Assembly (NCBI GenBank): GCA_903844735.1
Contig: CAIMUX010000064.1
Location: 1 to 64,000 of the forward strand
DNA length: 64,000 bases
Direction of reading: 5' to 3'
Origin: Candidatus Eiseniibacteriota bacterium
Lineage (GTDB): Bacteria > Eisenbacteria > RBG-16-71-46 > CAIMUX01
The stretch's first letter is position 1; every line of letters begins with the position of its first letter. Positions 39,015 to 63,892 of this stretch are shown here, piece by piece. Under the pieces are notes generated by a model. That model did not search any database. It was not told the origin of the DNA and worked only from the letters and a program-made list of their open reading frames with translations. Made by a program: the position numbers and the translations under genes.

Positions 39015-39404
39015 CTACATGCCGTTGGTCAGGGTCAGCATGGTCGTCGCGCCATCCTGACCGTAGGCCTCGATCGTGTAGACTCCGGCGGCCAGGACGT
39101 AGGTGCAGGTGCCAACCGCGGCGGCCGCGGCGAAGGCGTCGCCGGCAGCGTCAAACGGATTCACGATGCGGCCTGGCAGCAGCGCGACCAGAGCGGCGAC
39201 GTCGGCCGGATAAGTCCCGTTGTGGATGACGGCATCATCTTCGGCCGACAGTTGCCCCGCATGCGCGTTGGCCTTCACGCTCGACTCCCGCGCCCTATCC
39301 TGCATGGCCACATAGTTGGGGATGGCGATGGCGGCAAGAATGCCGATGATGACCACCACGATCATGAGCTCGATGAGTGTGAAGCCCTGCTTGTTCTTCA
39401 ACAT
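39015..39404 (-). CDS. pilA: Type IV major pilin
   Basis: Prepilin of 129 residues. Short leader MLKNKQG, cleavage before Phe, then FTLIELMIVVVIIGILAAIA with the conserved Glu5 and the hydrophobic assembly helix. The remaining ~95 residues are a small, Ala-rich globular domain with a single Cys (GTCTYVL), so no C-terminal disulfide loop. The ATG at 39404 has GGAGG 9 nt upstream; a longer frame to 39572 is excluded because the leader must be at the N-terminus. Located downstream of pilSR, which in other bacteria control pilA through sigma-54. Confidence 0.93.
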   Translation of the reverse strand: MLKNKQGFTLIELMIVVVIIGILAAIAIPNYVAMQDRARESSVKANAHAGQLSAEDDAVIHNGTYPADVAALVALLPGRIVNPFDAAGDAFAAAAAVGTCTYVLAAGVYTIEAYGQDGATTMLTLTNGM

Positions 39405-47392: not shown

Positions 47393-49441
47393 CTACCCGC
47401 CGAACGCCTCCCGGACGGCCGCGTCGACGAGCGGCTCCGGAGCGTCGGCTGGCAGCGTCACCCGCATCTCCGGCCTCGCCTCCATGGCGCGAAAGATGGC
47501 GAAGCGCGCCCCCTCATTCCCAGCCCAGGCGCGACGGGCAAGACCGTTGCTCACGTCCCAGTCGAGCATCTCGCGAGCGCGCCGGGCCGCATCCTTGCTG
47601 CCGTCCAGGAGGAGCCCGAAACCTCCGTTGATCACTTCGCCCCAACCGACCCCACCGCCGTTGTGGAGGGAGACCCAGGTCGCGCCGCGGAACGAGTCGC
47701 CGACAAAGTTTTGCACCGCCATATCGGCGCAGAAAAACGATCCGTCGCGAATGTTGGCGGTCTCGCGGTAGGGCGAGTCGGTGCCGCCGACATCGTGGTG
47801 ATCCCGACCGAGAACCACTCCGGCGGAGATCCGGCCCTCGGCGATGGCGGCATTGAAAGCCAGGGCGAGATCACACCGCCCCTGCCGGTCGGCGTACAGG
47901 ATCCGAGCCTGCGAGCCGACCACCATCCGGTTCTCCTCGGCGTGGCGGATCCAACGCAGGTTGTCGAGGAGTTGCTGCCGGGTTTCTGGTCCCGCGGTCG
48001 CCGCCCCGGTCTCGAGGATTGCGGCCGCAATCCGGTCCGTGGCCCTCAAGTCGGCGGCATCACCACTCGTGCAGACCCAGCGAAACGGCCCGAAGCCCAG
48101 GTCGAAGCAGACCGGCCCCATGATGTCCTCGACATACGAAGGGTAGGTGAACGAACCGTCAGGCCGCGTGATCCCCTCCGCTCCCGCGCGCGACGCCTCG
48201 AGCAGGAAGGCGTTGCCGTAGTCCCAGAAATGCATCCCACTGCGGCGCGCCAGATGGATCGCCGCCACCTGCCGCCGCAGCGACACCCGCACCTGCTCAG
48301 CGAACCCGGCCGGGTCGGCCACCATCATCCGGTTGGACTCCTCCAACGAAAGGCCCACTGGGTAGTAACCGCCGGTGAACGGGTTGTGCAGGGATGTCTG
48401 GTCCGAACCGAGGTCGACCGCGAACCCGACGCGTGCCATCTCTTCCCAGAGGTCGACGACATTGCCCAGGTAACCGATGGAGACACCCCGCCTCTCTCGC
48501 CGTGCGCGCTCGATGCGGGCGAGAAGCTTGCCGAGATCCTGTTCGTACTCGTCGAGCCATCCCTGCTCGTGGCGCTTTCTCAGGGCGTCCGGATTGACCT
48601 CGGCAATGACACCGACCGCGCCGGCAATCACCGCCGCCTTGGCCTGCGCGCCGCTCATCCCGCCGAGCCCCGAGGTCACATAGATCTTGCCGGCCAGCCC
48701 ATCGTCGCCGTCGACGCCAAGATACTTTCTCCCCGCATTCAGCAGCGTGATCGTGGTGCCGTGGACAATCCCCTGCGGCCCGATGTACATGAAGCTGCCC
48801 GCCGTCATCTGCCCATAGGAAGTGACGCCGAGGGCGGCAAGCCGATTGTAGTCGTCCGCTGAGCTGTGATTCGGAACGACCATGCCGTTGGTCACGACCG
48901 CGCGGGGGGCATCGGGAGACGAGGGAAAGATCCCCAGCGGATGCCCCGAGTACAGCACCAGGGTCTGCTCCGCGGTCATCTCCGAGAGATACCGCATGGT
49001 GAGCAGGTACTGCGCCCAGTTCTGGAAGACCGTCCCGTTCCCGCCGTAGGTGATGAGTTCATGCGGATGCTGCGCCACCCGAGGGTCGAGGTTGTTCTGG
49101 ATCATCAGCATGATGGCGGCGGCCTGCGGGGTCCGGGCCGGATACTCGTCGATCGGCCGCGCCCGCATCTCGTAGTGCGGGCGGAAGCGGCGCATGTAGA
49201 TCCGGCCATCCTCGGCCAACTCGCGCGCGAACTCGGGGGCCAGGGCGGTGTGGAGGGATGGTGCGAAATACCGCAGGGCGTTGTGGACCGCCAAGCGACG
49301 CTCCGCCTCGTTCAGCACTCCCGGACGCGTGGGCGCGTGGCTCACGCCCGGCTCCTCGGAGGGTGGATCGGGCAGGTGGTCGGGAATGCCCCGGGTGATC
49401 GCTTCACGGAAGTCCGTCATGGTCGTCCGGGATCGCTTCAT
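47393..49441 (-). CDS. hutU: Urocanate hydratase (long type)
   Basis: Second step of histidine degradation: urocanate to imidazolone propionate with NAD+ as tightly bound electrophile. The ATG at 49441 has GGGAGG 6 nt upstream and gives 682 residues, closer to the ~676 of vertebrate urocanase than to the ~560 of Pseudomonas HutU. Key blocks: ITYGGNGTVFQNWAQY, LYSGHPLGIFP, the Rossmann motif VTSGLGGMSGAQAKAA, and near the C-terminus LGRDHHDVGGTDSPYRET and GATWVSLHNGGGVGWGE. No hutH, hutI or hutG is in the window, so this gene stands alone between pilB and the sugar genes. Confidence 0.95.
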   Translation of the reverse strand: MKRSRTTMTDFREAITRGIPDHLPDPPSEEPGVSHAPTRPGVLNEAERRLAVHNALRYFAPSLHTALAPEFARELAEDGRIYMRRFRPHYEMRARPIDEYPARTPQAAAIMLMIQNNLDPRVAQHPHELITYGGNGTVFQNWAQYLLTMRYLSEMTAEQTLVLYSGHPLGIFPSSPDAPRAVVTNGMVVPNHSSADDYNRLAALGVTSYGQMTAGSFMYIGPQGIVHGTTITLLNAGRKYLGVDGDDGLAGKIYVTSGLGGMSGAQAKAAVIAGAVGVIAEVNPDALRKRHEQGWLDEYEQDLGKLLARIERARRERRGVSIGYLGNVVDLWEEMARVGFAVDLGSDQTSLHNPFTGGYYPVGLSLEESNRMMVADPAGFAEQVRVSLRRQVAAIHLARRSGMHFWDYGNAFLLEASRAGAEGITRPDGSFTYPSYVEDIMGPVCFDLGFGPFRWVCTSGDAADLRATDRIAAAILETGAATAGPETRQQLLDNLRWIRHAEENRMVVGSQARILYADRQGRCDLALAFNAAIAEGRISAGVVLGRDHHDVGGTDSPYRETANIRDGSFFCADMAVQNFVGDSFRGATWVSLHNGGGVGWGEVINGGFGLLLDGSKDAARRAREMLDWDVSNGLARRAWAGNEGARFAIFRAMEARPEMRVTLPADAPEPLVDAAVREAFGG

Positions 49442-49546
49442 GATGTTCCTCCCGTGTGCCATCGCGTGCCGCCTCGGACTGCTCCGAAGGAGGATATCAG
49501 GTGAGCGTGTCAGTTCGCAATGAACCGTCGTGATCACCGGGTGAAT

Positions 49547-49654
49547 GTCGTTCCCCTGGACGACGGAGGCACCGGGTTCCCGGTGCCCGCGCGCAGCGCC
49601 ACGGCCCTGGCTGAGGCGATAGATACGTTGCTCGCGCATGACGGGCGACACGAG
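49547..49654 (+). pseudogene. Fragment of a GT4 glycosyltransferase C-terminus
   Basis: Thirty-six codons read LDDGGTGFPVPARSATALAE then AIDTLLAHDGRHE. They match the intact GT4 gene at 57481-57585 (VDDGRTGFLVPPRDPAALAE then AIGVLLAHDERRR), with high DNA identity such as TTGCTCGCGCATGACG. The rest of the gene is missing and the next gene runs antisense close by. A relic of a duplicated or rearranged glycosyltransferase. Confidence 0.75.
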
Positions 49655-49688
49655 TGCCCGCCTATCAGACCGGCCCTGATCTCCTCTC

Positions 49689-51812
49689 CTACCGTCGTCC
49701 CGCAGATCCGGCCAATCCGAGTCCTCGATCCGGACCGGTTGACGTCGAGCCGCATCGCTCTTCCAGCTTCTTCAGGATCTGCGCGTGCAGATCCGGGTTC
49801 GGGTCCGACGCAACGGAGTCGACCCAGGCCCGCGCGGCGGCGCAGCCACGCAGGCGGAGAAGAGCTTCCAGAAGCGTGTCCGCGCTGTCCCGGTCGGGAC
49901 GAGCGCGAAACGCCCGACGCGCTAGGGCGACCGCCTCGTCCGGGTTCCTGCTGCTTCCGGCGAGAAACCACGCGAGGTCGTTCAGGCCGGAAGGATCGTC
50001 CGGGATCTCGTCCAGAACCCCGCGATAGACAGCTTCCGCGCTGTCCACCGCTCCCGTCTGCCAGAGAGCGTAGGCCCAGTTCCTCCGTGTGAAGGAATCC
50101 TCCGGCGTGAGCGCGACCGCGGCCTTCCAGGCCTGTTCCGCCTCTATCCATTTCGACTGCAAGGCCAGGGCGGAGGCGTGCCCGGTGATCGGCCGGGGGT
50201 CTCCGGGAGGAAGCACATGAGAGGCCTGCCGGAAGACAGCGTCGGCGTCCGCTCCCCGGTTCAGGGCCAGGTACGTGTAGGCCAGCTCGCACAGGAGCAG
50301 AGGGTCGCCGGTGCCGGCCCGGACAATCGGTTCCGCTAGGTCGCAGCCTTCTTGCGGGCGCCCCAACGCTCGCAGGCAGAACGTGGTGACCTCCACGGCC
50401 GGGGAGAAATCCGGAACCTGCGCGAGTGCCTTCTCTCCCTCCCCGACGGCCGCCTCCAAGTCCCCGGCCGCTGCGTACACGCGGGCGCGAGCAACAAGCA
50501 CGCGCACGGAGCGGGGGGATGTCTTTGCCGCGGCCCGAAAGAGCGTTCCATTGTCGCGCCAATCGAGAGTGCGGATCCACGCGCGCACCCCGAGCCCCAC
50601 GCCCCACGACAGAGCCACGACAAGGAATAACCACCCGGCCCCGGGCAGGCGATTCCGCAGCCACAGACGCAACCGGTCGGCCGAGTCGACCAGCAACCAG
50701 AACGCCCCGACCGAAGGCAGATAGGCCAGACGCTCGGCCAGCACGGTCCCGATGGGAAAGAGCACATTGGAAGTCAGCAGCCCGGTGAAGGTCACGAAGC
50801 AGATTCCCCAGAGCCGCGCCCAATCCCGCGCGCGCGCGGCGTGAACGACGACTGTGGCGCCGAGTACGAGCAGTGCGGCTCCCGCGATCTGCCAAGCGGG
50901 GGTCGGGACGAGCTGAGAAAAGCTGTAGTCCGGCGTGAGGCGCACTGGAAGCAGCACCTGCCCGATGAGACTCCATTGAAAACCGAGCGCCCCCAACATG
51001 CGATTCCAGACCGGCATGTGGGCCAGGATATTGTCGACCCGGTTGATCTGCCCGATCGCCAGCGCGCTACCGAAGATCAGAACGCGGAGGAAAAGCATGA
51101 GCGCAACCGGCGGGAGCCAGACCAGGAAGACGCTCCGCCAGGCCTTCCTCCGACCCCACAGAAAGTAGTGCAGGACCGGCAACAGGCAAAGGCCGGCGGC
51201 GCTCTCCTTCGACAGCATCGCGAGACCGAAGGTCACGCCGGAGGCAGGGAGAATCCAGGCCGGAGGTTTCGTGGCCGTCAGGTGGTCATCCTGTTTTTCG
51301 CAGTAGATCACTGCCTGCAGATAGGCCAGCAACCCCCAAAACGCCGCCAGCAGCTCCGAGCGGCCCACCGCCCAGACGACGGCTTCGCTCCGCAATGGGT
51401 GAACGGCCGCAAGAGCAGCCGCACAGAGGCTCCGCCCCGGCCATGCGGGGAAGAGACGCCGCAAGAGTCGCCAGACAACCAACGTCGTCGCCATGTGCAA
51501 CAGCAAGTTGAAGGCGTGAAAGGCCCCCGCGCCCATCCCGAACACGCGGGCGTTTAGCCAGAAGCTGAAGGTGGTCACCGGGCGGTACAACCCGCACGCC
51601 GGCCTGTCCGGCCAGAAGGGGCGTGTCCAGGCATCCGCCGGCGACGACGACAGCACCGACGAGTTGTCTTGGATCAGACTCTGATCGTCGAAGGCAAAAC
51701 CGTTGCGGAGAGACGGCAGGTACGGCAACAGCGAGAGAACGGACAGCAGTGCCCATGCCTGCCATCCTCGAATCCAGGATGAACTCCCGTACAGCTTCTC
51801 CGTCCTCGGCAC
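49689..51812 (-). CDS. TMTC-like membrane glycosyltransferase with TPR repeats
   Basis: 707 residues. About eleven TM helices occupy the first ~440 residues, starting with the GT-C type motif FAFDDQSLI after LPSLRNG. A TPR domain follows (~450-640: ARARVYAAAGDLEAAVGEGEKAL, quoted as AAAGDLEAAVGEGEKAL; LAYTYLALNRGADADAVFRQ; NWAYALWQTGAVDSAEAVYR). This architecture is that of TMTC O-mannosyltransferases and their bacterial relatives, which use dolichol- or polyprenyl-phosphate sugars. GTG start with GGGAGG 6 nt upstream. The acceptor is unknown; neighbours encode exported proteins that could be substrates. Confidence 0.82.
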   Translation of the reverse strand: MPRTEKLYGSSSWIRGWQAWALLSVLSLLPYLPSLRNGFAFDDQSLIQDNSSVLSSSPADAWTRPFWPDRPACGLYRPVTTFSFWLNARVFGMGAGAFHAFNLLLHMATTLVVWRLLRRLFPAWPGRSLCAAALAAVHPLRSEAVVWAVGRSELLAAFWGLLAYLQAVIYCEKQDDHLTATKPPAWILPASGVTFGLAMLSKESAAGLCLLPVLHYFLWGRRKAWRSVFLVWLPPVALMLFLRVLIFGSALAIGQINRVDNILAHMPVWNRMLGALGFQWSLIGQVLLPVRLTPDYSFSQLVPTPAWQIAGAALLVLGATVVVHAARARDWARLWGICFVTFTGLLTSNVLFPIGTVLAERLAYLPSVGAFWLLVDSADRLRLWLRNRLPGAGWLFLVVALSWGVGLGVRAWIRTLDWRDNGTLFRAAAKTSPRSVRVLVARARVYAAAGDLEAAVGEGEKALAQVPDFSPAVEVTTFCLRALGRPQEGCDLAEPIVRAGTGDPLLLCELAYTYLALNRGADADAVFRQASHVLPPGDPRPITGHASALALQSKWIEAEQAWKAAVALTPEDSFTRRNWAYALWQTGAVDSAEAVYRGVLDEIPDDPSGLNDLAWFLAGSSRNPDEAVALARRAFRARPDRDSADTLLEALLRLRGCAAARAWVDSVASDPNPDLHAQILKKLEERCGSTSTGPDRGLGLAGSAGRR

Positions 51813-52199
51813 TTGCCTCCTCCCGGGATCCGTGTGGGTTCACGCCCCCTCGGCCCGGCGATGCCGCACCACAAGCCGGACGACAACGTGTGCGCCGATG
51901 ACCGAGGTGACCACCCCGACGCGCAATATAGCCCTTCTCGGGACACCCCGCTACAGGGGACGGAAGGGGCGGGAGAGACGATGGACGGAGGGATTCCAAA
52001 GCGTCGGGGTCTCTGATCCGGCTTCACATCGAAGGTGGCCGTGCCCCTTGCGGGAAACCGCCGAGTGGCCCTGAAGAACCTTGCATTCGCGCCCACCGCT
52101 CGGCGAAACTCGGCCACAGTCACTCGGAGTGCGGCGAAGGGCGCCCGGAAGAGGAGCCGCCCGGAGTAGAAGCCGCCCGGAAGAGGAGCCGCCCGGCGC
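51813..52199. other. Divergent intergenic region with 16-bp repeats
   Basis: About 390 bp between two oppositely directed membrane glycosyltransferase genes. Apart from the GCCCGG repeats at its right end no structure or gene is seen. Confidence 0.5.
52143..52198 (+). repeat. 16-bp tandem repeats upstream of the GT39-like gene
   Basis: GCCCGGAAGAGGAGCC, GCCCGGAGTAGAAGCC, GCCCGGAAGAGGAGCC and a partial GCCCGGCGC run straight into the ATG. The last full unit supplies the GAGGAG that is the only Shine-Dalgarno-like sequence. Confidence 0.85.
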
Positions 52200-53882
52200 A
52201 TGAACAAGGCTATATGGAGAACCTGGCACACAGAGCTCTTCTCCACCGACGACGAGCGGTCTTCGCATCCCCGACACACCCAGTGGCTGGTTCGTCTGCT
52301 CCTGATCCTGTTCTTCTTCCGCTGCTTCACCAGCATGGTCCGAGAGTCCTCGACTTGGGATGAAACCCACTATCTGGGGATCGGCAAATACCTCCTGCAG
52401 CATTTCTCCTGGGATGTCCCCGGATCGATCCTTCACCCGCCGCTTTCCTTCATGATCCATGACTTGCCCCTGCTCTTCGTCCCCACCGACGAGTCGGTCT
52501 GGCGATATTCCGCGGGAGCGCATAACGATCCCAACTTCCTCCTGAGTGCTGACCCGGCGCGCGGGCGTCAACTTCTTTCCTCGCCCCTGAACGCGCGGGA
52601 CCAGATCCTGACCCTCACCCGCTTGACCAATGTGTTCCTGGCCGTTCTCCTGATGATCTACATCTATCGATGGGCCGGGGATCTCTATGGCCGGCGGGGG
52701 GGAGTCTTGGCCCTGGGCCTGGCTACATTCTGTCCGAACCTCCTGGCCCACGCGCGCTACATCACGCCCGACCTTCCCCTGACCGCCTTCAGCTTCATCT
52801 TCTTCTTCTACCTCCGGCGTCTGATGCGGACTCGGTCGAGGGGGGATTCGGCCAAGGCGGGCCTATTTCTGGGATGCGCCATCCTTTCCAAGTACACCGC
52901 GATTCTCTTGCTGCCCCTCAGCCTCCTGCCTCTCCTGAGTGTCATGTCTTGTCTCCGGTCCCGTTTCTCTGGGACGGTCGCTCTTTCGGCACGAAAACCT
53001 TTGGTTTCCGCTCTCCTTGTGATGTGGGGAACCGCGATCTTACTCTTCTTTCTTTTCTACAGATTCAATCCGACCCCCTATTTCAAGGGGATCCAGTTTC
53101 AGGTGGCGCACGCCAGCGGAGGGCACTCGGCCTTCTTGGTTGGCAAGTACTCCATTCAAGGCTGGTGGTACTACTATCTTGTCACCTTCCTGGTGAAGAC
53201 GCCGGTGGCGGTGCTCGTCCTCCTGGGCATTGTTTGCGCCGCGACCCGGCGCCGCCCCTCCGCGGGAGGTTCGGGGCGGACTAGGGAGTGGATGCTGGCG
53301 CCGTTTCCGGTCATGGTCTTCGCTCTCTTCAGCGTTCAACACCAAGCTCTGGGCTATCGATACATCCTGCCGATCTTGCCTTTCCTGTACGTCTATCTCG
53401 GCCGCTTGACTTTCTTGCGCTCTTGTCGAGCGCGGGCACTGGCGGTAGCGGCCCTTCTCTATTATGCCGGCACCAGCCTGGCCATCCATCCGCACTATCT
53501 GGCCTACTTCAATGAACTCGCCGGTGGACCCAAGAACGGATACAAGGTCCTGGTCGATTCGAATCTGGACTGGGGACAGGATCTCAAGGGCCTCGGGGCC
53601 TACGCCGATCGTATGGGCATTCGGGATCTCACCCTGGTCTATTTCGGCACCGATACCCCCGCGCGATACGGCATTCCCGTGGGGAGGTTCTACAATCTCT
53701 ACTCCGGCCTGGAGCCACCCCTGGAGTTCCCGCCGGAAACTACGGGCGTCTTCGCGATCAGCGCAACCGAACTTCAAGGGGTATACAACGAGAATCACCA
53801 TGTCTTCGACTGGCTGAAGGGGAAGACGCCGGTGGCCAGGATCGGGTACTCGATCTTTGTCTATCGATTGGGAGGGACGTGA
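52200..53882 (+). CDS. GT39-like membrane glycosyltransferase
   Basis: 560 residues with about ten to twelve TM helices. The catalytic acidic motif follows the first TM helix: STWDETHYLGIGKYLL, as in PMT/ArnT-family GT-C enzymes. Other family landmarks are HPPLSF, ARYITPDLPLTAFSFI, FLGCAILSKYTAI and HQALGYRYILPILPF. The soluble C-terminal part (~430-555) has LVDSNLDWGQDLKGL, often seen in such proteins. It uses polyprenyl-phosphate sugars to modify proteins or lipids in the periplasm; the acceptor is unknown. Divergent from the TMTC-like gene. Confidence 0.85.
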   Translation: MNKAIWRTWHTELFSTDDERSSHPRHTQWLVRLLLILFFFRCFTSMVRESSTWDETHYLGIGKYLLQHFSWDVPGSILHPPLSFMIHDLPLLFVPTDESVWRYSAGAHNDPNFLLSADPARGRQLLSSPLNARDQILTLTRLTNVFLAVLLMIYIYRWAGDLYGRRGGVLALGLATFCPNLLAHARYITPDLPLTAFSFIFFFYLRRLMRTRSRGDSAKAGLFLGCAILSKYTAILLLPLSLLPLLSVMSCLRSRFSGTVALSARKPLVSALLVMWGTAILLFFLFYRFNPTPYFKGIQFQVAHASGGHSAFLVGKYSIQGWWYYYLVTFLVKTPVAVLVLLGIVCAATRRRPSAGGSGRTREWMLAPFPVMVFALFSVQHQALGYRYILPILPFLYVYLGRLTFLRSCRARALAVAALLYYAGTSLAIHPHYLAYFNELAGGPKNGYKVLVDSNLDWGQDLKGLGAYADRMGIRDLTLVYFGTDTPARYGIPVGRFYNLYSGLEPPLEFPPETTGVFAISATELQGVYNENHHVFDWLKGKTPVARIGYSIFVYRLGGT

Positions 53883-54138
53883 CGAGAGCGGCGGACTCGC
53901 GACTTCGGCGGTCGGCACGGGCCGAACTTCGACCATTCGAGTGTGACGAAATCGACGACGTTGAACTGGGCCTCGCGGCGGACAGCCTCGCGCGCCGTGT
54001 CGAGATCGAAGCAAAGTACTCGGGATCCGGATCGTTCGAGCTCTTGGGAACTGCACCCCGGATCGCGACCCTGACTCGAAAAAGCCTGCCTGCAAGTGGA
54101 AGCAGGCCCCGTCCGTTCCGCTGGGTACTGACCTTGGC

Positions 54139-55494
54139 CTACCGGTAGTTCGCCTTGATCCTGCCCCAGCTTGTCCGTTCGGTCGGAACCGACGTCTGGC
54201 ATGTAGCCGGGGTGCACAGCACACTGTCACCCTGATACTGGCCCGGACCGGCTGCACATGCGGCCGCCGTAACCGCCCGGCAGATCCCATCGGTGAAACA
54301 ACAGGCGCCCGTCGCGGGCTGGGGCTGCGGACAGAGGTTCGGATCGCAGCTCGTGTTCAGCCCGGACCAAGCGCCGTCCAGCGCGGTGCACCCCACCTCG
54401 GTCAGGAGCTGACAGGAGCCGTCCGGTAAGCAGCAGGCTCCCTGCGGCTGCACGCAGACGTTCGGCGTGCAGTCTGTGCCGATTCCGAGCCACTGCGCAC
54501 CCGCCTGAGCGCATTGCGCCGCGGTCACAACCTGACACACGCCATCCGGAAAGCAGCAGCCCGCCGGCGGTTGTGCGCACAGATTCGGTGTGCAGTTGCT
54601 GCCATAGCCGAGCCACACCGTACCGGCAGCCTGGGCACAATCAGCCGCCGTCAACAGTCGGCAGGAGCCATCCGGAAAGCAGCAGGCTCCCGACGGCTGC
54701 ACGCAGGGGTTCGGATCACAGTCGGAACCATAGCCCAACCAGTCTCCACCTGAAACGTCACACTCTGTCTGCAGGACATACACGCACGCTCCATCGGGAA
54801 AACAGCAGGCACCCTGGGGCTGCGGGCAGGGGCTCGGTGTGCAGGAACTGCCATACCCTAGCCGAATGTCAAAGCATTCGGCCTCGGGGACGATCGTGCA
54901 GGAACCATCGGGATGACAGCAGACCGCATTCACCGGGCAGTCGATCACGAGGGCCGGGGCGGTCGCGGGGTATCCAATCGTGGCCGCAAACGAAGCCGCG
55001 GCGACTTCCCAGACTCCCTGGAACATATAGATCAGGTAGCTCCCGGGCTGGATCGTGAACGATGCCTCCAGCCCCAGAACGTGGTTGGCAACTCCGTCAT
55101 AGCCCAGGCCAACCCACGCGATATCAGGCGGGGCTCCATTGTTCCCCGACCTGCTGGTCACGACCTTGTTGGCCGTCGTGTTGATGGCCACCCACGACCC
55201 GACGAGGATCCCGCTGGAATTGTAGTAGAGAGTGACATTCGATTCGCCGAGCACCAGGACGTACATGGTGCTCGTCGCGCAGTCATAACGTAGGTAGGCA
55301 TTGCAAGAGAGCGGCATTGTCGAATCACCGCTCCGGTGCATCTCGGCAAAGAAATCGTTCGTGAGATCCCACTCTGCCGTATTTCCATCGACCACCGCGG
55401 TGCCGTAGCCGGGGGCCGGAGGAGTGGCGAACGAAGACGGCGGCAAGAGGCCCATCGCGATGATCGGTAGAACCCACCATGGCAGGCTCCTCAC
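54139..55494 (-). CDS. Secreted Cys-rich repeat protein
   Basis: 451 residues; GTG start with GGGAGGT 6 nt upstream. Signal peptide ~1-23, a beta-rich N-terminal domain (~25-185: TAVVDGNTAEWDLTNDFF suggests a carbohydrate-binding-like 'CBM9/DOMON-like' fold, not certain). Then six 39-43-residue Cys repeats (~192-438), each with CC-x-P-D-G-x-C...C...G..C.P..C. Such ACCFPDGSC repeats are widespread in Planctomycetes and FCB candidate phyla, function unknown. The protein ends in TSWGRIKANYR, a short aromatic/basic tail that looks like a terminal signal. Glycosyltransferases lie on both sides. Confidence 0.8.
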   Translation of the reverse strand: MRSLPWWVLPIIAMGLLPPSSFATPPAPGYGTAVVDGNTAEWDLTNDFFAEMHRSGDSTMPLSCNAYLRYDCATSTMYVLVLGESNVTLYYNSSGILVGSWVAINTTANKVVTSRSGNNGAPPDIAWVGLGYDGVANHVLGLEASFTIQPGSYLIYMFQGVWEVAAASFAATIGYPATAPALVIDCPVNAVCCHPDGSCTIVPEAECFDIRLGYGSSCTPSPCPQPQGACCFPDGACVYVLQTECDVSGGDWLGYGSDCDPNPCVQPSGACCFPDGSCRLLTAADCAQAAGTVWLGYGSNCTPNLCAQPPAGCCFPDGVCQVVTAAQCAQAGAQWLGIGTDCTPNVCVQPQGACCLPDGSCQLLTEVGCTALDGAWSGLNTSCDPNLCPQPQPATGACCFTDGICRAVTAAACAAGPGQYQGDSVLCTPATCQTSVPTERTSWGRIKANYR

Positions 55495-55674
55495 TTCGCA
55501 CCTCCCGGCGACACGGTCACTCTTTGCGGAGACGCCTTGTTGAGTCCGACCCCTTCTTCCATGGTATCGTATTCGGCTGGCCCTTCGGAATCGTTGAGCG
55601 CATTATTCTTTCGTGATTTCTCTATACTGGCGCGCGGTACAGTCCGGAGCCGCACGTCCCCTCACAGCGGGTCG

Positions 55675-56319
55675 TCAGGTACGGCGTCGCCCCCTGACAA
55701 GACCAAGAACAGCAATCCCCAGACCCAGAAGAGCCACAGATGCCGGCTCGGGAACCGGGTTGACCCCGGTCGCGTCCCCACGCAAGTCGTCGACGAGCCA
55801 CATGTTTCCGGAGTTGACCTCCCCGCGCAGGACTACGTAATCGATAAACGTCCCGGCCGCGGCGCTCACGGTCAAGGTCCGCATCGGAGCGCTGAGATCG
55901 CACCCGCCAACGACAGAGAGGACACTCGCATCCGTCAGGTGCGCCTCCAGATAGAAATCCGAGCAGGAGCTGTATCCGGCCGAGAAGAACGTCCCGTCTT
56001 TATGGACGAAGTCGGCCTTCACGCCCTCGGCGGTTGCATTAGGGCCGGCCCACAGCCAGAAGTCACCGTTGTGGTGATACTGGGGAGCCCAGTCGTTCCA
56101 ACCCATATCGAGATCGTCCGAATACGTGTTGTAGAGAGAGGTCCGGCTGTCTCCGTAGATCGAGTCGAAACCATCGAGGCTTCGGATCGAGACACCTTGA
56201 ATGTCGTCTGCGGGATGTCCATCCACCCCGTTCTCGAAATTAATGCACCATGCAGACGCGCCGCTGGGGACAAGAATCGCCAACCCCATGATTAGCATCA
56301 CCATAAGTAATCTTTTCAT
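55675..56319 (-). CDS. PEP-CTERM anchored exported protein
   Basis: 214 residues. Signal peptide ~1-23 (MKRLLMVMLIMGLAILVPSG), a ~150-residue beta-rich ectodomain with two likely disulfide-forming Cys pairs, and a textbook PEP-CTERM tail: VPEPASVALLGLGIAVLG, then the basic RGRRR. The tail is recognised by exosortase, which is not in this window. Such proteins are exported with exopolysaccharide synthesis and are often glycosylated, consistent with the flanking transferases. The ectodomain itself is not recognised. Confidence 0.88.
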   Translation of the reverse strand: MKRLLMVMLIMGLAILVPSGASAWCINFENGVDGHPADDIQGVSIRSLDGFDSIYGDSRTSLYNTYSDDLDMGWNDWAPQYHHNGDFWLWAGPNATAEGVKADFVHKDGTFFSAGYSSCSDFYLEAHLTDASVLSVVGGCDLSAPMRTLTVSAAAGTFIDYVVLRGEVNSGNMWLVDDLRGDATGVNPVPEPASVALLGLGIAVLGLVRGRRRT

Positions 56320-56641
56320 AGGTATGACTTCATCCTTTCAGAGTTCCTGAAAACTACCGGCAGTCCCAGCTCAAGCCAAGGCCACCCGCTGATTCTACCA
56401 AGGTTGGGTCATTAAGTATAGAGAAATTCCCGCCCGCGGGCGTGGCGACCGCCTCCCGCGGCCCCGGGACACAGACATGGCAGCCCAGTCTCGGGATCAC
56501 GTCCCCGGGGACACGGACCGGGAGGGACACCGCGGAATGCGGTTGGGGTTGGGGCCGGCGCCCGGCGAGGCTATCCTGCCTCCGGCCCCGTCTCCTGCCC
56601 GCATGTCGCGGCGCTGTGGACCGGCCGCGGAGCGAAACGCC
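56320..56641. other. Divergent intergenic region PEP-CTERM / GT4
   Basis: About 320 bp. On the minus strand TATACT occurs near 56413-56424 within TTTCTCTATACT; the same 12-mer occurs at 55614-55627. No clear -35 is seen. An in-frame extension of the GT4 gene back to 56477 is possible but less likely. Confidence 0.4.
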
Positions 56642-57691
56642 ATGCGCATTCTTCATCTGCTCGACATCCCGTGGCACAGCGGGCTCGCGCACTACGCCCT
56701 CAGCCTGGCCGCCGCCCTACGCGGCGTCGGGCACGAGACATGGATCGGCGCGAGGCAGAGTTCAGGCCCGTGGACGGCGGCCGGGGCGCTCGGACTCCCG
56801 TGCGTGCCCTACGCCCGGCTTTCTTCGCTCCCGGCGCTGCAGGCTTTTCTTCGCCGCGAACGGATCGGTGTGGTCGACGCCCATACCGGAGGCACCCACA
56901 CCCTCGCCGTGGCAGCCACCGCCGGGCTGGCAGCCGTCGTGGTGCGCACCCGCGGCGACGCGCGCCCCGTACGCAAGCGTCCGGGAGCCGGGCTCCTTTT
57001 CCGCCGCACCGGCCGCATCATCGCGGCTGCCGAGTACATCCGGCAGCAGTATCTAGATGCGGTGGGGCTCCCCCCCGAACAGGTCGTCACGATCCTGCAG
57101 GGAGTCGAGTTGCCGCCGGCCGTGTCGGCACCGGCCGGTTCGCCCCGCGTCGCCATCGTGGGCCGGCTCGACCCGGTGAAGGGTCACGCCGACTTCCTCG
57201 CGGCCGCGGCTCTGATCCTTCCCCGGCATCCGGGAACCCGCTTCATCGTCGCCGGCCGTCCCGAAACAATCGCACGGTCCGATCTCGAGCGGCAGGCCCG
57301 CGACCTCGGGCTGGGAGAGGCCGTCGAAATCACGGGGCATCTTGATGACCTCGCCGCGCTGCACCGCGAGGCCGGCATAGGGGTGGTGGCGTCCACGGGA
57401 AGCGAGGCGGTCTCGCGCGTCACTCTGGAGTGGCTGGCGGCGGGCCGGCCGGTGGTGGCGACCCGCGTGGGCGGGATCCCGGAACTCGTGGATGACGGGC
57501 GCACCGGGTTCCTCGTGCCGCCGCGCGACCCCGCAGCCCTGGCGGAGGCGATCGGAGTGTTGCTCGCGCATGACGAGAGGCGGCGGGTCATGGGCGAGGC
57601 GGCGCGCGCGGACGCGGTGGCCCGTTTCTCGCTTTCCCGCTTCGCGGCGGAGACGGTGCGCGTCTACGAGGAGGCCGGATGCCCCGCCTGA
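56642..57691 (+). CDS. GT4-family glycosyltransferase
   Basis: Cytoplasmic GT-B retaining transferase, 349 residues from the ATG at 56642 (GGAG 9 nt upstream). The N-terminal MRILHLLDIPWHSGLAHYAL has the acceptor-side glycine loop. The C-terminal domain has VAIVGRLDPVKGHADFL, GTRFIVAGR, and the donor-binding E-x7-E in SEAVSRVTLEWLAAGRPVVA. A partial copy of its 3' end lies at 49547-49654. It overlaps the following GT2 gene by 13 nt. Sugar and acceptor are unknown; lipopolysaccharide or exopolysaccharide assembly is likely. Confidence 0.9.
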   Translation: MRILHLLDIPWHSGLAHYALSLAAALRGVGHETWIGARQSSGPWTAAGALGLPCVPYARLSSLPALQAFLRRERIGVVDAHTGGTHTLAVAATAGLAAVVVRTRGDARPVRKRPGAGLLFRRTGRIIAAAEYIRQQYLDAVGLPPEQVVTILQGVELPPAVSAPAGSPRVAIVGRLDPVKGHADFLAAAALILPRHPGTRFIVAGRPETIARSDLERQARDLGLGEAVEITGHLDDLAALHREAGIGVVASTGSEAVSRVTLEWLAAGRPVVATRVGGIPELVDDGRTGFLVPPRDPAALAEAIGVLLAHDERRRVMGEAARADAVARFSLSRFAAETVRVYEEAGCPA

Positions 57692-58491
57692 GCGCGATCC
57701 TCGTGGTGCGTAACGAGGCGGGGCAACTCGATGACTGCCTCGCGGGTGTGGTCGGTCTCGCCGACGAGATCATCCTAGTCGATGACGAATCGAACGACGA
57801 CACGCGGGACGTGGCCCGTCGGTTCACCGACCGCGTGCTCACCCGAAAGCTCGATCGGTTCGGCGCGCAGCGGCAATTTGCCCTCGATCACGCCACCGGC
57901 GACTGGGTCCTCTCTATCGACGCCGATGAGCGGATCACCCCTGCGCTGCGTGCCGAGATCGTGCGTGTCCTCGACGACCCCAGCGCGTCGGATGGCTACG
58001 AGATCCGCCGCGTTGTCTTCTTCCTCGGGCGACGGCTGCGCCATGGCGGCCTGGGCGACGAGCACGTGCTGAGGCTCTTCCGCCGGGCACGAGCCCGTTT
58101 CAGCGACAACGCCGTCCACGAGCACGTCATGGTGGACGGCCGCACCGCCAAGCTGCAAGGGGCCTTGGAGCATCACACGCACCGATCGCTTCGTCGCTAT
58201 GTGAAGAAGGTCAACCTTTACACCGACCTCGCCGCCGGGGAGCGGTTCGACCGCGGCGGTCGCTTCCACTGGTGGATGCACTTGCGCCCGGTGTGGAAGT
58301 TCTTCTCGCGGTTTGTGCTGCGCGGTGGATTTCTCGACGGGCACGCCGGGTTCATCTATGCAGGACTGACGGCGTACGCGACGTGGCTGCGGGCGCTCAA
58401 GATGTGGGAGATGGGGCGCACCGGTACGTCTCTCGCCGGGATCAAATCTGGGGCTTCACGGGCTCCCGACAACATGACAAACGTATCGTAA
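57679..58491 (+). CDS. GT2-family glycosyltransferase (LPS-core WaaE-like)
   Basis: GT-A inverting transferase, 270 residues. N-terminal SAILVVRNEAGQLDDCL, the nucleotide-binding EIILVDDESNDDT, and the metal-binding DxD as LSIDADERITP. The second half, HGGLGDEHVLRLFRR, ALEHHTHRSLRRYVKKVNLY and WKFFSRFVLRGGFLDGHAGF, is characteristic of the LPS-core beta-glucosyltransferase (WaaE/KdtX) family. Overlaps the GT4 gene, so the two probably build the same glycan. Confidence 0.9.
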   Translation: MPRLSAILVVRNEAGQLDDCLAGVVGLADEIILVDDESNDDTRDVARRFTDRVLTRKLDRFGAQRQFALDHATGDWVLSIDADERITPALRAEIVRVLDDPSASDGYEIRRVVFFLGRRLRHGGLGDEHVLRLFRRARARFSDNAVHEHVMVDGRTAKLQGALEHHTHRSLRRYVKKVNLYTDLAAGERFDRGGRFHWWMHLRPVWKFFSRFVLRGGFLDGHAGFIYAGLTAYATWLRALKMWEMGRTGTSLAGIKSGASRAPDNMTNVS

Positions 58492-58597: not shown

Positions 58598-59281
58598 TTA
58601 CATCGCCCAGTCGATGCGATCCTGGATCGCCGCCTGCTTCTTCGGCCCGATCCCCTTCACCCGCAGAAGATCGCGAGGGGACCGAAACGGTCCGGCCTTC
58701 TCCCGCTCCTCCACGATCCGCTTCGCGAGCGCCGGGCCGACACCGGGCAACGCCTCGAGGTCGAGCGCCGAAGCCCGGTTGATCGCGATGCGCCCCGTCG
58801 CGGCAACGCCTGCCGGGATGCTCGACGCCGACTCGATCGGGACTGCCTCCAAGGCCCCGGCCCCGGGTAGGGAAGCCGTCGATTCTGCCACGGCCCCATC
58901 GAAAACAGTTTCACCTGTCTCATCACTTCTGTGTGCTGCGATGAATTTTCCGTCGGCAGGATTCTTGGACGTGGCGCTAGGCGTGATTCCGGACATGGTC
59001 CAAGGCATGGTCCCAGACATGGTCGCGGGCATGGTCCCAGACATCGCGCGTGCGACGGCGGCAGGCATGGCTCCGGGCACGGCTCCTCGCCGGCCACCCG
59101 CGAGGTCAGCCCCTGCTCCCAACGACTCCGCCCGCGCCGCCTGTGCCCGCGTCAGCCAGGCCGAAAGCTCGCGATCCGGCCGCGCCTTCCGCTCATCCCG
59201 TAGAAGAGCAGCTCCCTGGCCGAGGACAAGCAGACTGAGCAATCCCAGGAGGGCCCTACGTTCTTCGGGGGTCAGAATCAT
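58598..59281 (-). CDS. ComEA-like helix-hairpin-helix protein
   Basis: 227 residues; ATG with GGAGG 5 nt upstream. A short N-terminal membrane segment (~12-28) anchors the protein. A low-complexity Met/Thr/Pro linker follows (~67-105), then tandem HhH motifs at ~168-226: INRASALDLEALPGVGPALA and LLRVKGIGPKKQAAI. This is the ComEA arrangement (membrane anchor plus HhH that binds incoming DNA non-specifically). A role in DNA uptake with the type IV pilus is plausible but not proven; comEC/comF are not in the window. Confidence 0.85.
   Translation of the reverse strand: MILTPEERRALLGLLSLLVLGQGAALLRDERKARPDRELSAWLTRAQAARAESLGAGADLAGGRRGAVPGAMPAAVARAMSGTMPATMSGTMPWTMSGITPSATSKNPADGKFIAAHRSDETGETVFDGAVAESTASLPGAGALEAVPIESASSIPAGVAATGRIAINRASALDLEALPGVGPALAKRIVEEREKAGPFRSPRDLLRVKGIGPKKQAAIQDRIDWAM
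58992..59087 (-). repeat. 24-bp tandem repeats in the ComEA-like gene
   Basis: Four units of 24 bp, each of two 12-bp halves (GACATGGTCCAA / GGCATGGTCCCA on the plus strand). They encode the Met-rich linker MSGTMPATMSGTMPWTMSG. Confidence 0.85.
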
Positions 59282-59317: not shown

Positions 59318-61759
59318 CTAGTTGAGAAAACACCAAGTGAGCCCCATGCGGTACGTGCGCAGGGGCAGGGTCCACCAGGTCGATCCGGACGGATCCAGAG
59401 AAATCCCGCTCTCGTAGTCTGCCGCCGGCGCAAGGTCGCTCTCCAGATTGAGAAGCACCACGAAGATCGAGAGCTCGTCGACCTGCACGGTGATCCCGGC
59501 GTCGTAGCGATCCCCCGCGACTAGCGTGCCGTACGGGGTCGATCGCGGGCCGGAGATCGCGCCACGCACGAACCCGTCGACTCGCAGATCAGAAGAGAAG
59601 AACGCGCGACGCAGGGACAGGCGCGCCCGCCCGTCCCATGGCGCCATCCACAACTGATCCTCCACCGCGGGCCTCGCCGTCCTTCCGGTTCCCTCTACCT
59701 CGAACGCCAGGCCGCGGCCCAAGTCGACCGTCGCGGCACCGCGCAGCGAGACCGCCTGCACCGTGCGATCGAGCGACGCTGCCGAGAGCGATGCGTATCC
59801 CTCCGGCGTGAAGAGCGAGAGTTCCCCGGGACCCGGCGCCACCGCATGGTCGATCCGCACGCCGCGCGCGTGTAGTGTCCAGTGCGTACGCGGCGCCACG
59901 CCCTCCAGAGCCGCCTCCACCCGGGCCGGTGCCTCCAGCCGGCGATCGGGGTCCACCACCAGCCGTTCCTTGCCTGGGGTGCTCCCGCTGACCCAAGCCC
60001 CTTGGCCGACGGCGCCGGCCAGGTCGCCGGCGAGCCGAGGCACCAGCGCACCGCGAACGCAGCGGTCGGCGTGCAGCCGCATCACCCAACCGCGGGGCAG
60101 AGGACGCTCGGCCGTGGCCGCGGCCACCCAGCCGGATTTGCCCGGCGCGGGGGTCGCCCATCCGACTGAGGACCGGAACTGCCAGAATCCCGACACCCCA
60201 TCCATCCCCCCAGCCAGTCCCGGGCCATTGTCGCTACGATCTTCCGAGATCTGCGGCCAGGCCGGCTGGTTGAATCTGCGGCGCTGCCGGTCGAGTTGCA
60301 GCGTCAGCATCGGCCGCAGCCCAGCGCGACGTCCTTCGATACGCAGCAGGCCGCGCGCCAAGGCCTCCTTCCGGCTCGCCGGCACGTTTCCCTCCCACGC
60401 CAGGCGTTCCCAGCTCATCGCCATCGACAGATCGGCCGCCCACGCACGGCGGCACAGTGCCAGGCCGGCGTCCCAAGCGGAGCGGTCGTGCAAGTAGCGC
60501 TCAGACCGGCTGGGGCGTACGCGCGTCTTTGCCTGCCTCCAGCCCAAGCGCCACCCTCCCCACGCGGTACCGCGGTCGGTTCTCAGGAGCAGGTTTTCAC
60601 CGAACTGGCGGAAGTAGTCGATCCCAAAGCGGCCATCGGTCTTGGAGTCGGCATAACCGAATCGGGTCAACCGCGACCCCGAGGGGCGAGAGACGAAGAA
60701 CTCCTCGGTGTGGACACCACTGGAGCCGCTGGTAAGCCGGAAGCCGCTCATCGCACGCGAAGAATCGGGCCGCAAGAGATCCATCGCCACCATGGGTCCA
60801 CCCGAAGGGTTCGACGGAAGCAGCAGCGGATCGGCCGGAAGGAGCGAGACTTGCTCCAGCCAGAGCGGCCCCACCGGGTCGGGCGTCATCTCGGGATAGC
60901 CGGACGGTGCCAGCGGCATCCCCTCGAGCAAGTAGGCGGCAGGCTCGCGACCGGGCAGGTCACCGGCGTCGATCGGGTCCGGCGCGTTGTAAGCGGCACT
61001 AGGGATCCGGCGCAAGCCCCCCGACCACTCCAGCACCTCGCGCAGCACAGCCTCAGTGGAGCGATCCGCGATTTTACGCGGGAGTACGAAGCCGCCCGGT
61101 CCGCGCGCAACAGCGACGGCCGGGAGCGACGCCCGGGTCCACGAGTGAGAACGCCGGCCCCTACCCGCCGCCCGAACCGCCGCCGAATCAGCCTTGGCGC
61201 TCGATGTGTCGGGAGCGGATCCGGCGCTGTCCACGGGCGCAGCGCGCACACCGTCCGGGATGGGCACGACGCGGTCGACCGGCGCAGCGCGCACGCTGTC
61301 CGGGAGAGGCACAGCGCGGTCGACCGCCCCGCCCTGGCCCTCCGGCACCTTGGGAATTCCGGTAGAGGCCTGAGCAAGAAGAGCCGACGGTACCGCCTTC
61401 GACGAAGCCGCGGCCGAGTTCGCGACGGTGGCCGGGCCAGAGGCCGCAAGACACACAAGGAGACAGGCCGGGAGGAAAGGGGACGAAACAAGCCGGAAAA
61501 GAAGAGACCAGACGAAGCGCTGTTGCCGTCGATGAAGATGAACACCCGGAAGCGCGGCGAAGCAGGGAAAAATCAGACGGCTCAGGCAGCGCGAGCCCCG
61601 GGATCGATCCCAATCGCACGCATCTCGCAGGCGCTCTGTCGCGCCTGTGCGTCGAGGAACCCGGGCAGCTCGTCTCGCACCCGTTCGAAGATCTCCGCAG
61701 CTTCCCGCCATTCCTCCGCCGACTCCAGCGCCACCCCCAGGTGATAGAGGATACTGCAC
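59318..61759 (-). CDS. Putative outer-membrane beta-barrel protein (start unresolved)
   Basis: Up to 813 residues from the ATG at 61759. A signal-like hydrophobic stretch (LPACLLVCLAASGPATVAN) occurs only at ~97-115, with no ATG, GTG or TTG close before it, and the upstream part overlaps the TPR gene. The real start is therefore unclear (a rare start codon such as CTG/ATT near 61570, or a frameshift). After it come a Pro/Val 15-residue repeat, a plug-like segment (~230-330: AAYLLEGMPLAPSG, VGPLWLEQVSLLP) and ~450 residues of alternating aromatic beta-strand text ending TYRMGLTWCFLN. It resembles TonB-receptor/porin-like proteins; the ligand is unknown. Confidence 0.6.
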   Translation of the reverse strand: MQYPLSPGGGAGVGGGMAGSCGDLRTGARRAARVPRRTGATERLRDACDWDRSRGSRCLSRLIFPCFAALPGVHLHRRQQRFVWSLLFRLVSSPFLPACLLVCLAASGPATVANSAAASSKAVPSALLAQASTGIPKVPEGQGGAVDRAVPLPDSVRAAPVDRVVPIPDGVRAAPVDSAGSAPDTSSAKADSAAVRAAGRGRRSHSWTRASLPAVAVARGPGGFVLPRKIADRSTEAVLREVLEWSGGLRRIPSAAYNAPDPIDAGDLPGREPAAYLLEGMPLAPSGYPEMTPDPVGPLWLEQVSLLPADPLLLPSNPSGGPMVAMDLLRPDSSRAMSGFRLTSGSSGVHTEEFFVSRPSGSRLTRFGYADSKTDGRFGIDYFRQFGENLLLRTDRGTAWGGWRLGWRQAKTRVRPSRSERYLHDRSAWDAGLALCRRAWAADLSMAMSWERLAWEGNVPASRKEALARGLLRIEGRRAGLRPMLTLQLDRQRRRFNQPAWPQISEDRSDNGPGLAGGMDGVSGFWQFRSSVGWATPAPGKSGWVAAATAERPLPRGWVMRLHADRCVRGALVPRLAGDLAGAVGQGAWVSGSTPGKERLVVDPDRRLEAPARVEAALEGVAPRTHWTLHARGVRIDHAVAPGPGELSLFTPEGYASLSAASLDRTVQAVSLRGAATVDLGRGLAFEVEGTGRTARPAVEDQLWMAPWDGRARLSLRRAFFSSDLRVDGFVRGAISGPRSTPYGTLVAGDRYDAGITVQVDELSIFVVLLNLESDLAPAADYESGISLDPSGSTWWTLPLRTYRMGLTWCFLN
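61236..61325 (-). repeat. 45-bp repeats in the outer-membrane protein gene
   Basis: GGCGCAGCGCGCAC at 61236 and 61281 marks two 45-bp units, encoding VDRVVPIPDGVRAAP and VDRAVPLPDSVRAAP. Confidence 0.85.
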
Positions 61760-62523
61760 CGGCTTTCCGTGTCCGGTACCGGCCGCTCGAGGGCGGTCCG
61801 GAACTCATGCACCGCCTCCCGGTGGCGCCGCAGCGCCAAGAGGCAAACCCCCCGCAACTCCCGCGCGTGCAACTCCATCTCGACAGCGAGCCCCGGGCAG
61901 CTCAGAACGGTATCCAGCTCCTCCACCGCCTCCTCGAACAGCTCCATCCCGTGGTGCGAGACGGCCAGATCATAGTGTCCCGCAGCGTCGTCCCCGGCAA
62001 TTTGATTCTTGATCCCGTGGCGGAACTCCTCGATGAGCGCGCCGAGGTCGATCCACTCGTCACTTTGAATCACGGAAAGATCATCGCGAACGGACGTCCG
62101 GGCGCCCGAGGACTCCAACACGCCCAGCACCGAATCGCGGGTGGCCTCCGGGATCCGCTCCGCGCCCGGCACGCCCATTTCCTGCAAGCGGGAGATTCGG
62201 CGGCGCGCGGTGCTGCTTCCGGAATCAATTCGGAGCGCCTCGAGGAAGGCCTCCAATGCCTCTTCCATCACGCCCGCCTCGATCCAGGCATCGCCGAGTT
62301 GCTCGAGGTAGTGGACCTCCGCGACGGAGTCCTCCAGCTTGCGCGCGATCTCCACCAGGCGTCCGAGCACCATCGGCTCCAGCGACGTTTCGTGCGCGGC
62401 CCGGTCGTAGAGCCCACGGGCCTCGGCCCACTGTCCCGACTCGTACGCCGCCTCCGCACGATCGACGAGTGAGCGAAGCGTGACACCCGACGGCCAGGAG
62501 ATCTCCTCAGGGTCGAGCCCCAC
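61582..62523 (-). CDS. TPR protein, probably the 3' part of a frameshifted gene
   Basis: 313 residues from a GTG at 62523, without a good Shine-Dalgarno. All-helical TPR text: AEAAYESGQWAEARGLYDRA, EDSVAEVHYLEQLGDAW, EEALEAFLEALRID, AVSHHGMELFEEAVEELD, LGVALESAEEWREAAEIFER. Its 5' end overlaps the next TPR gene by 17 nt. The frame continues upstream, without a stop, as far as a C12 homopolymer at 62566-62577; one C fewer there would fuse both frames into one ~795-residue protein. Most likely this is the C-terminal half of that protein. Confidence 0.7.
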   Translation of the reverse strand: MGLDPEEISWPSGVTLRSLVDRAEAAYESGQWAEARGLYDRAAHETSLEPMVLGRLVEIARKLEDSVAEVHYLEQLGDAWIEAGVMEEALEAFLEALRIDSGSSTARRRISRLQEMGVPGAERIPEATRDSVLGVLESSGARTSVRDDLSVIQSDEWIDLGALIEEFRHGIKNQIAGDDAAGHYDLAVSHHGMELFEEAVEELDTVLSCPGLAVEMELHARELRGVCLLALRRHREAVHEFRTALERPVPDTESRCSILYHLGVALESAEEWREAAEIFERVRDELPGFLDAQARQSACEMRAIGIDPGARAA

Positions 62524-63892
62524 GCTCCGTTCTCCCGAGTCCGGCCCGTCGTTCCATCCAGAGTCGGGGGGGGGGGGTCACACGCGGCACCGACGCGTCC
62601 AGCATCGGCTCGGGGAATTCCGCAGGGATCAGCCTGGACGATCCTTGGCCCGTCTCGACGGATCCAGCCGAACCACCGGCGCTCTCCACCGCTCCCGGAT
62701 CGATCTGGAGCGCCTCCTCTTCCGCATCCAGGTCCCAGATTCTCTCGTCGACATCCCCGGAGGCCTCGTCGGCAGTCGCGTCGATCTCTACTCGATCGTC
62801 GCCCGGCGCTCGGTCACGGGCCGGACCATCAGCGTCACCCGGGCCTGTGCGACCCATGACCGGCGGCTCCGCGACGCTCCCCCCGACCGGGAAGTGTTCG
62901 ACCAGAAACGGCGGCGGCTCCGACGAGGATTCCGTCCGAGGCTCGGCCTGAAACGTCGTATCGAGGCCGGCCGAAGAGGCCACCGAGGGTTCGGTCCAAT
63001 CGACGACGGCGCCGGCCGTCGCTGGTTCGTGGAGTTGATCCATCGGCATCTCGGCCAGCCCATCATCCGGGGGTTCAACCGCTACCAGATCGGGGAACGG
63101 ATCCACCGGGGCACGCTCCGCGTCCTCGTCTCCACGCGAGGTCGGGAGCTCCGCCGCAGACGCGTCCGGCGGCGTGAGCCCTCCGCTGAACAGCCCATCC
63201 TCCGCGTCCGCTTCCGGCGACGGACTGTCCGGGGCCATCGCGACGCCGACCGTGAGGGCAGTGGCTCCTTCGACCTTCTGCTCCTCGTGCGTCCGCTCCG
63301 CCGCTCGGGCCCGCTCCCGCAGTTCGAATGCCATTTCGGGCGAGCCGGCCGTCTGCACCTTATCGGCAAGGCCGTGGAACATCCGAGCTGCCTGATCAGA
63401 TTGCCCGGCACGGAGATAGTGGTCGCCGATGCGCAGGGCCGCCTCGACCTGCAGACCGACGGCGGATCCCGCGTGCTCGAGTGTGGTGAGAAACTCTTCG
63501 GAAAAGCGGGCGTCTCCGTTGATGGCATCAAGCCAGTGAAGAAAATGGGGCATCGCCTCGCCGAGAAGCCCCTCGCGATAATAGAGTTCGCCCAGGGTTC
63601 GGTGCACGGCGACCCGCCCGTGGTCGAGGCGGAGAACCTTCTTGCCGACCGCGATGGCGTTGCGATTCAACCCGGCTCGATCGTAGGAGTGTACCGCTTC
63701 CATCCACGCGTCGACCGCCTCTTGCGGACGACCTTCCCGCATCAGGAGGTCACCAAGGTAGACGTGGTCATAGGGGTCGGCCTCGGCCTCCACCACAAGC
63801 AGTCGCATCTCCTCGATCGCGTGCGCGATCTCCCCGTCCCGGGCGAGTCTCTGAGCCTTCCGCCTTGCGAAGGTGCCTTTTTCCAATGCCAT
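62507..63892 (-). CDS. TPR-repeat protein, probably the 5' part of a frameshifted gene
   Basis: 461 residues. N-terminal TPR array (~10-200: RKAQRLARDGEIAHAIEEMR, LYLGDLLMREGRPQEAVDAW-like text, LGELYYREGLLGEAMPHFLH, ALRIGDHYLRAGQSDQAARM). This is followed by ~240 residues of acidic, Pro/Ser-rich low-complexity sequence and a frameshifted tail after the Pro run at the C12 tract. The start ATG at 63892 is adjacent to GGAG (spacing too short to be ideal). Unknown function; scaffold proteins with this layout often organise envelope or gliding machinery. Upstream, 63893-64000 may contain the end of another minus-strand gene. Confidence 0.7.
   Translation of the reverse strand: MALEKGTFARRKAQRLARDGEIAHAIEEMRLLVVEAEADPYDHVYLGDLLMREGRPQEAVDAWMEAVHSYDRAGLNRNAIAVGKKVLRLDHGRVAVHRTLGELYYREGLLGEAMPHFLHWLDAINGDARFSEEFLTTLEHAGSAVGLQVEAALRIGDHYLRAGQSDQAARMFHGLADKVQTAGSPEMAFELRERARAAERTHEEQKVEGATALTVGVAMAPDSPSPEADAEDGLFSGGLTPPDASAAELPTSRGDEDAERAPVDPFPDLVAVEPPDDGLAEMPMDQLHEPATAGAVVDWTEPSVASSAGLDTTFQAEPRTESSSEPPPFLVEHFPVGGSVAEPPVMGRTGPGDADGPARDRAPGDDRVEIDATADEASGDVDERIWDLDAEEEALQIDPGAVESAGGSAGSVETGQGSSRLIPAEFPEPMLDASVPRVTPPPRLWMERRAGLGRTERGARP
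62566..62577 (-). other. C12 homopolymer at the split of the TPR gene
   Basis: Twelve consecutive G on the plus strand (C on the coding strand). With 11 C, the upstream frame joins the downstream frame at residues PPPDSGWNDGPDSGER... and runs on without a stop. Confidence 0.85.

Follow-up and report, generated by a model that had tools for sequence, protein, structure and literature searches.

Near the end of the window, the 64,000-nucleotide stretch of Candidatus Eiseniibacteriota DNA analysed here, two TPR reading frames on the minus strand flank a run of 12 cytosines. The run (C12 in the sense of the gene, G12 on the plus strand, 62566–62577) is the site of the frame offset, and the two frames differ by one nucleotide. 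The upstream frame, ORF1 (62507–63892, minus strand, 461 aa), comprises an N-terminal TPR domain (residues 1–215), an acidic, proline-rich disordered linker (224–439) and, 3' of the tract, 19 final codons that give an out-of-register tail. The downstream frame, ORF2 (61582–62523, minus strand, 313 aa), contains the C-terminal TPR blocks (residues 15–137 and 159–302), overlaps ORF1 by 17 nt and is open back to a stop codon that abuts the tract (stop-to-tract distance 0 bp). Codon usage, scored with the window as training set, gave +24 for the frame upstream of the run and +27 for a different frame downstream; the best single frame scored 3. The initial annotation had described a C12 tract separating two TPR frames, which the coordinates, the codon score and the openness of ORF2 up to the tract bear out. 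Homologues, codon signal and synteny all speak for its proposal of one split TPR gene, but the length given, ~795 residues, needs correcting: the in-register product has 769 aa by coordinates, read from the ATG at 63892, and 784 aa at most if the frame is extended by 15 codons to the preceding stop (an open frame of 476 versus 461 codons).

Pfam recognises TPRs in the halves of the gene, and AlphaFold predicts confident helical repeats over residues 1–215 of ORF1 and over 15–137 and 159–302 of ORF2, with low confidence over almost all of ORF1 224–439. With confident repeats on either side, a low-confidence stretch between them and the run at codons 440–443 of ORF1, the run thus ends the predicted linker between two functional parts of the protein. 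No other internal G/C run of the 5.4-Mb genome reaches the length of C12, which is unremarkable in itself, since Markov models of orders 2–5 predict 0.3–0.8 runs of at least 12 genome-wide and an order-1 model predicts 3.6. The run probably arose in the linker as a side effect of the high-GC codons for proline.

Type IV pilus genes in the window

The TPR gene lies in a locus for type IV pili, in which the genes given below with window coordinates are all encoded on the minus strand. Matches above the family cut-offs were obtained for pilB (45390–47105; TIGR02538, 745.7 bits, cut-off 675.65), pilT (44134–45243; TIGR01420, 485 bits, cut-off 319.1), pilM (31941–32987; TIGR01175, 237.6 bits, cut-off 133) and pilQ (27975–29957; TIGR02515, 327.6 bits, cut-off 284.35). 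A pilC-like gene (42902–44122; NF052606, 499 bits) and a gene for a pilin-like protein (39015–39404; NF041775, 57.4 bits) are below their cut-offs of 700 and 400, respectively. A helix-hairpin-helix protein (58598–59281), which we take from a sequence motif rather than a family scan to be ComEA-like, is kept between the TPR gene and pilB in relatives. The order hutI-TPR gene-comEA-pilB-pilT recurs in the regions of ten relatives, with hutI in all ten, the ComEA-like gene in nine and pilB in eight, where two of the ten stretches (G010 and G013) stop at contig ends; in the window's own genome hutI is found just past the window end (TIGR01224).

The downstream neighbour of the TPR gene (59318–61549, minus strand, about 743 aa with a start codon chosen by hand) has no match in Pfam or NCBIfam. 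In three of the ten regions a similar protein (28–35% identity) adjoins the TPR gene, and it may be an envelope component of the pilus or of a DNA-uptake system. About 10 kb (47393–58491) separates the ComEA-like gene from pilB in the window, whereas in the relatives examined these two genes adjoin each other, which points to inserted or rearranged DNA in the pilus block here.

The genome also encodes MglA (E 4.9e-44 to the MglA gliding protein, PDB 3t12), and next to mglA is an mglB-like gene whose score of 43.9 bits falls short of the cut-off. Both were reached via the roadblock family PF03259, and the pair resides on another contig (C50, L232:606–1935), away from the pilus cluster. The Arf family (PF00025) was rejected as a probe for MglA, its matches being weak (34.2 bits at most) and many of them in frames that exceed the size of an MglA.

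The gene in relatives and its likeness to SgmX

Both halves of the gene were searched in 59 genomes, the window's own included, and the C-half was found in 44 and the N-half in 42 of them. Stop-to-stop reading of the loci from 39 relatives, which tested whether both halves share one open frame, placed them in order in a single frame in 28. Five more relatives have them in one frame as judged by contig, frame length and phase: G004, G008 and G036, in which one half is too weak or short for the stop-to-stop count, and G017 and G035, which lie outside the 39. The halves are on separate contigs in G006, G009, G042, G045 and G046; G034 has the C-half only, at a contig start, and G011 the N-half only. 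Thus, 33 of the 34 relatives with both halves on the same contig are intact. The sole exception, G040 (L090, G040:C103:5400–10000), has a frameshift near the end of the N-terminal TPR domain at a site without a homopolymer; no run of at least 7 occurs there, and the ORF that was read contains none longer than 5.

The initial annotation had called for a comparison with homologues, in which naturally separate gene pairs would speak against a split; the comparison yielded one-frame orthologues instead, and no naturally two-gene homologues. The open frames of the relatives show that the two halves come from one ancestral gene, and by the same homologue evidence the frame offset falls within a conserved gene and is no chance pairing of ORFs. 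Two genes by nature are disfavoured by these one-frame homologues. An old pseudogene is disfavoured because the C-half shows no decay: ORF2 retains a strong codon signal and 51% identity to its counterpart in G002. Programmed recoding was likewise set aside, as the frameshift site is unconserved and a single frame runs through all 28 orthologues. The tract itself is not kept in these 28 intact orthologues, whose longest run is 8 (G026 and G027, in the linker); its loss is not decisive, since the nearest relatives searched share only the family with the window's genome, none being of the same genus. A flank-to-flank scan of the genome contigs, allowing any tract length between the flanks, found no second strain, and a related-locus search with ORF2 as query returned no relative.

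The split gene is probably a single gene that helps to switch on type IV pili. Its halves give the only two matches in the genome to the SgmX model (NF052243), and these are colinear, at model positions 13–168 for the N-half and 878–998 for the C-half. The scores, 25.1 and 20.3 bits, do not reach the cut-off of 1800 bits. Across 39 genomes the model found some match in 38 and none above the cut-off, and it matched one of 14 control genomes; TPR likeness alone therefore explains part of the SgmX matches. In an alignment of 16 proteins hand-picked from those available, SgmX matched all 16 and was the best curated family (4.2e-38), followed by MamA (1.5e-21), whereas for the C-half of the window protein alone MamA ranked above SgmX (36.9 versus 26.4 bits).

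The architecture is similar to that of SgmX from Myxococcus xanthus, with TPRs at both ends of a non-matching middle and colinear model matches of both halves, in agreement with the predicted folds. The context is shared as well: the window gene lies in a conserved block of a type IV pilus locus, and the genome has mglA together with the sub-threshold mglB-like gene. The window protein is, however, shorter (769 aa in register versus about 1,060), the middle FrzS-binding TPRs are not seen in it, and MglA binding is putative here. From this combination we infer that the protein is SgmX-like in function. The N-terminal TPRs of Myxococcus SgmX are pilus-activating and its C-terminal TPRs bind MglA (PMC7519303). 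By analogy, the N-terminal TPR domain of the window protein would act on the pilus machine, the C-terminal TPR blocks would receive the MglA signal, and the flexible acidic, proline-rich linker would join the two.

Long G/C runs in this and related genomes

A survey of the genome, with the contig-start runs of C94, C140 and C141 excluded, identified 69 distinct internal G/C runs of at least 9 bases, namely 48 of 9, 13 of 10, seven of 11 and one of 12. Most of them lack a coding score on both sides. Among the coding-scored runs, breaks of frame were seen at 0/10 runs of 9, 0/3 of 10, 1/3 of 11 and 1/1 of 12, after four cases flagged by the codon score (L086, L129, L166 and L176) had been removed on reading as gene-gene junctions. 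Pooled, this amounts to 2/4 breaks at lengths of at least 11 versus 0/13 at shorter ones (p about 0.04, Fisher, with the grouping chosen post hoc); inclusion of two sub-threshold intact genes (L087, with a run of 11, and L107, with a run of 9) gives 2/5 versus 0/14 and p about 0.06. Coding runs of 11 are intact in three loci (L071, L082 and L087).

The other break is in a gene for an FHA-GAF-SpoIIE phosphatase (Pfam), at a C11 run (C129:18541–18551; L085:1544–3461), also in a linker with proline codons. In homologues of this gene both parts stand in one open frame at 25 of 26 loci, and both broken genes, the TPR gene and the phosphatase gene, look one base too long. Runs of at least 11 were followed in relatives as well (29 loci, L136–L164, of which L146, L153, L158 and L162 are from the window's own genome); they are mostly non-coding by score or at contig ends, and the sole other flagged coding shift, at a C30 run (L152), looks like a gene boundary.

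Contigs C94, C140 and C141 start with 10, 21 and 33 C, respectively, and in several relatives contig ends carry G/C runs as long as 69. Two-colour sequencing can give rise to terminal G/C runs, and the contig-end runs are probably artefacts of assembly or of such sequencing. Given the C21 and C33 contig starts and the contig-end runs in relatives, G/C runs are evidently troublesome in these assemblies.

Origin of the frame offset

The reading we favour, at a shade under an even chance, is that the apparent split is a miscount of tract length in the assembly. The miscount would stem from slippage while the DNA was amplified or sequenced, or from the collapse of reads of mixed length, and most cells would carry the intact frame. 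Unselective slippage, be it in the tube or in the cell, fits the data because breaks are length-dependent in unrelated genes, the run is absent from intact relatives and similar runs occur at contig ends. Singleton frameshifts with full-length homologues are treated as expected sequencing errors in PMC3711429, and the window gene resembles these cases in that one genome is broken and the homologues are full length; it differs in that its break falls at a run whose length can change in living cells too. Length errors increase with run length and matter by 8-mers, according to PMC11140927; PMC4240813 deals mainly with A/T runs, and no support is drawn from it for the G/C case. The three intact coding runs of 11 speak against a miscount. 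Slippage in amplification or sequencing more often loses than gains bases, and the miscount is weakened further because both breaks look one base too long. These same observations, the intact runs of 11 and the extra base at both breaks, keep phase variation alive as a minority reading.

True phase variation is unlikely in our estimate. Slipped-strand mispairing at the C run would alternate between a full-length ON product and one truncated after the N-terminal TPRs and linker, which a C-terminal piece with its own start might or might not accompany. Some of the cells would then activate pili independently of control by MglA. The gene does contain a coding repeat tract whose length sets the frame, this tract is the longest internal run of the genome, and it stands within a pilus-locus gene between two functional domains; the C-half is undecayed, with its strong codon signal and 51% identity to the G002 protein. 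Reversible frameshift indels are also reported for high-GC M. tuberculosis (PMC8339072), in low-complexity sequence and, as here, not confined to surface antigens, although that study covers 5977 isolates against the one assembly here. Slipped-strand phase-variable genes in Neisseria and Campylobacter offer a further likeness in the long coding G/C run, the frame broken at the run and the link to pili. They differ in that the window gene encodes a cytoplasmic regulator (from its N-terminus, read by eye) and not a surface part, and in that the tract here is unconserved and its length, known from a single assembly, shows no variation. Moreover, the run is missing in all 28 intact orthologues, there is only one other break among the 69 runs, in an unrelated regulator, and genes are in general depleted of poly-G/C tracts (PMC2831843). 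An evolved switch is weakened by the lack of conservation in relatives and by the genome-wide dependence of breaks on run length.

A real but purposeless indel is an unlikely explanation, in which a slippage mutation would have reached the majority of the sampled population through relaxed selection, leaving a young pseudogene and no switch. The same length-dependent pattern of slippage is compatible with it, and the unrelated break in the same gene of G040 may mean that loss is tolerated, unless G040 is itself an error; the intact frames of 33 of 34 same-contig relatives and the undecayed C-half point the other way. Leaky rescue, by which +1 ribosomal slippage on CCC-C or transcriptional slippage would allow a genuine C12 allele to make some full-length protein, is very unlikely. 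CCC-C is a +1-prone motif, and the direction of the offset agrees with +1 slippage at CCC codons for proline, but the site is present in no orthologue and hence is not a programmed element. Also very unlikely is the production of two separate proteins from two cistrons by coupled restart, for which a putative start read by eye (62521–62536, minus strand: GGGAG 8 nt before a GTG that precedes the first predicted C-terminal TPR helix) and the 17-nt overlap could be cited, whereas no relative has two adjacent intact genes of this kind and the ORF2 frame is open to the tract.

If the switch is real, it would place slippage where a type IV pilus regulator passes from its activation domain to its polarity domain. 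With such a linker switch in an SgmX-like protein, a reading that we regard as unlikely, members of one clone would alternate between pilus activation steered by MglA and an N-terminal activator blind to MglA (or no activator), with heritable differences in pilus use set at a regulator rather than at a pilin or adhesin. Within the literature searched, SgmX together with 'phase variation' brought up a review alone. If the offset is technical, as the favoured miscount would have it, assemblies of this sort lose the frame of conserved genes at G/C runs of at least 11, and gene callers are led astray. On both readings, the data assign a conserved SgmX-like gene to the pilB-pilT block in this class.
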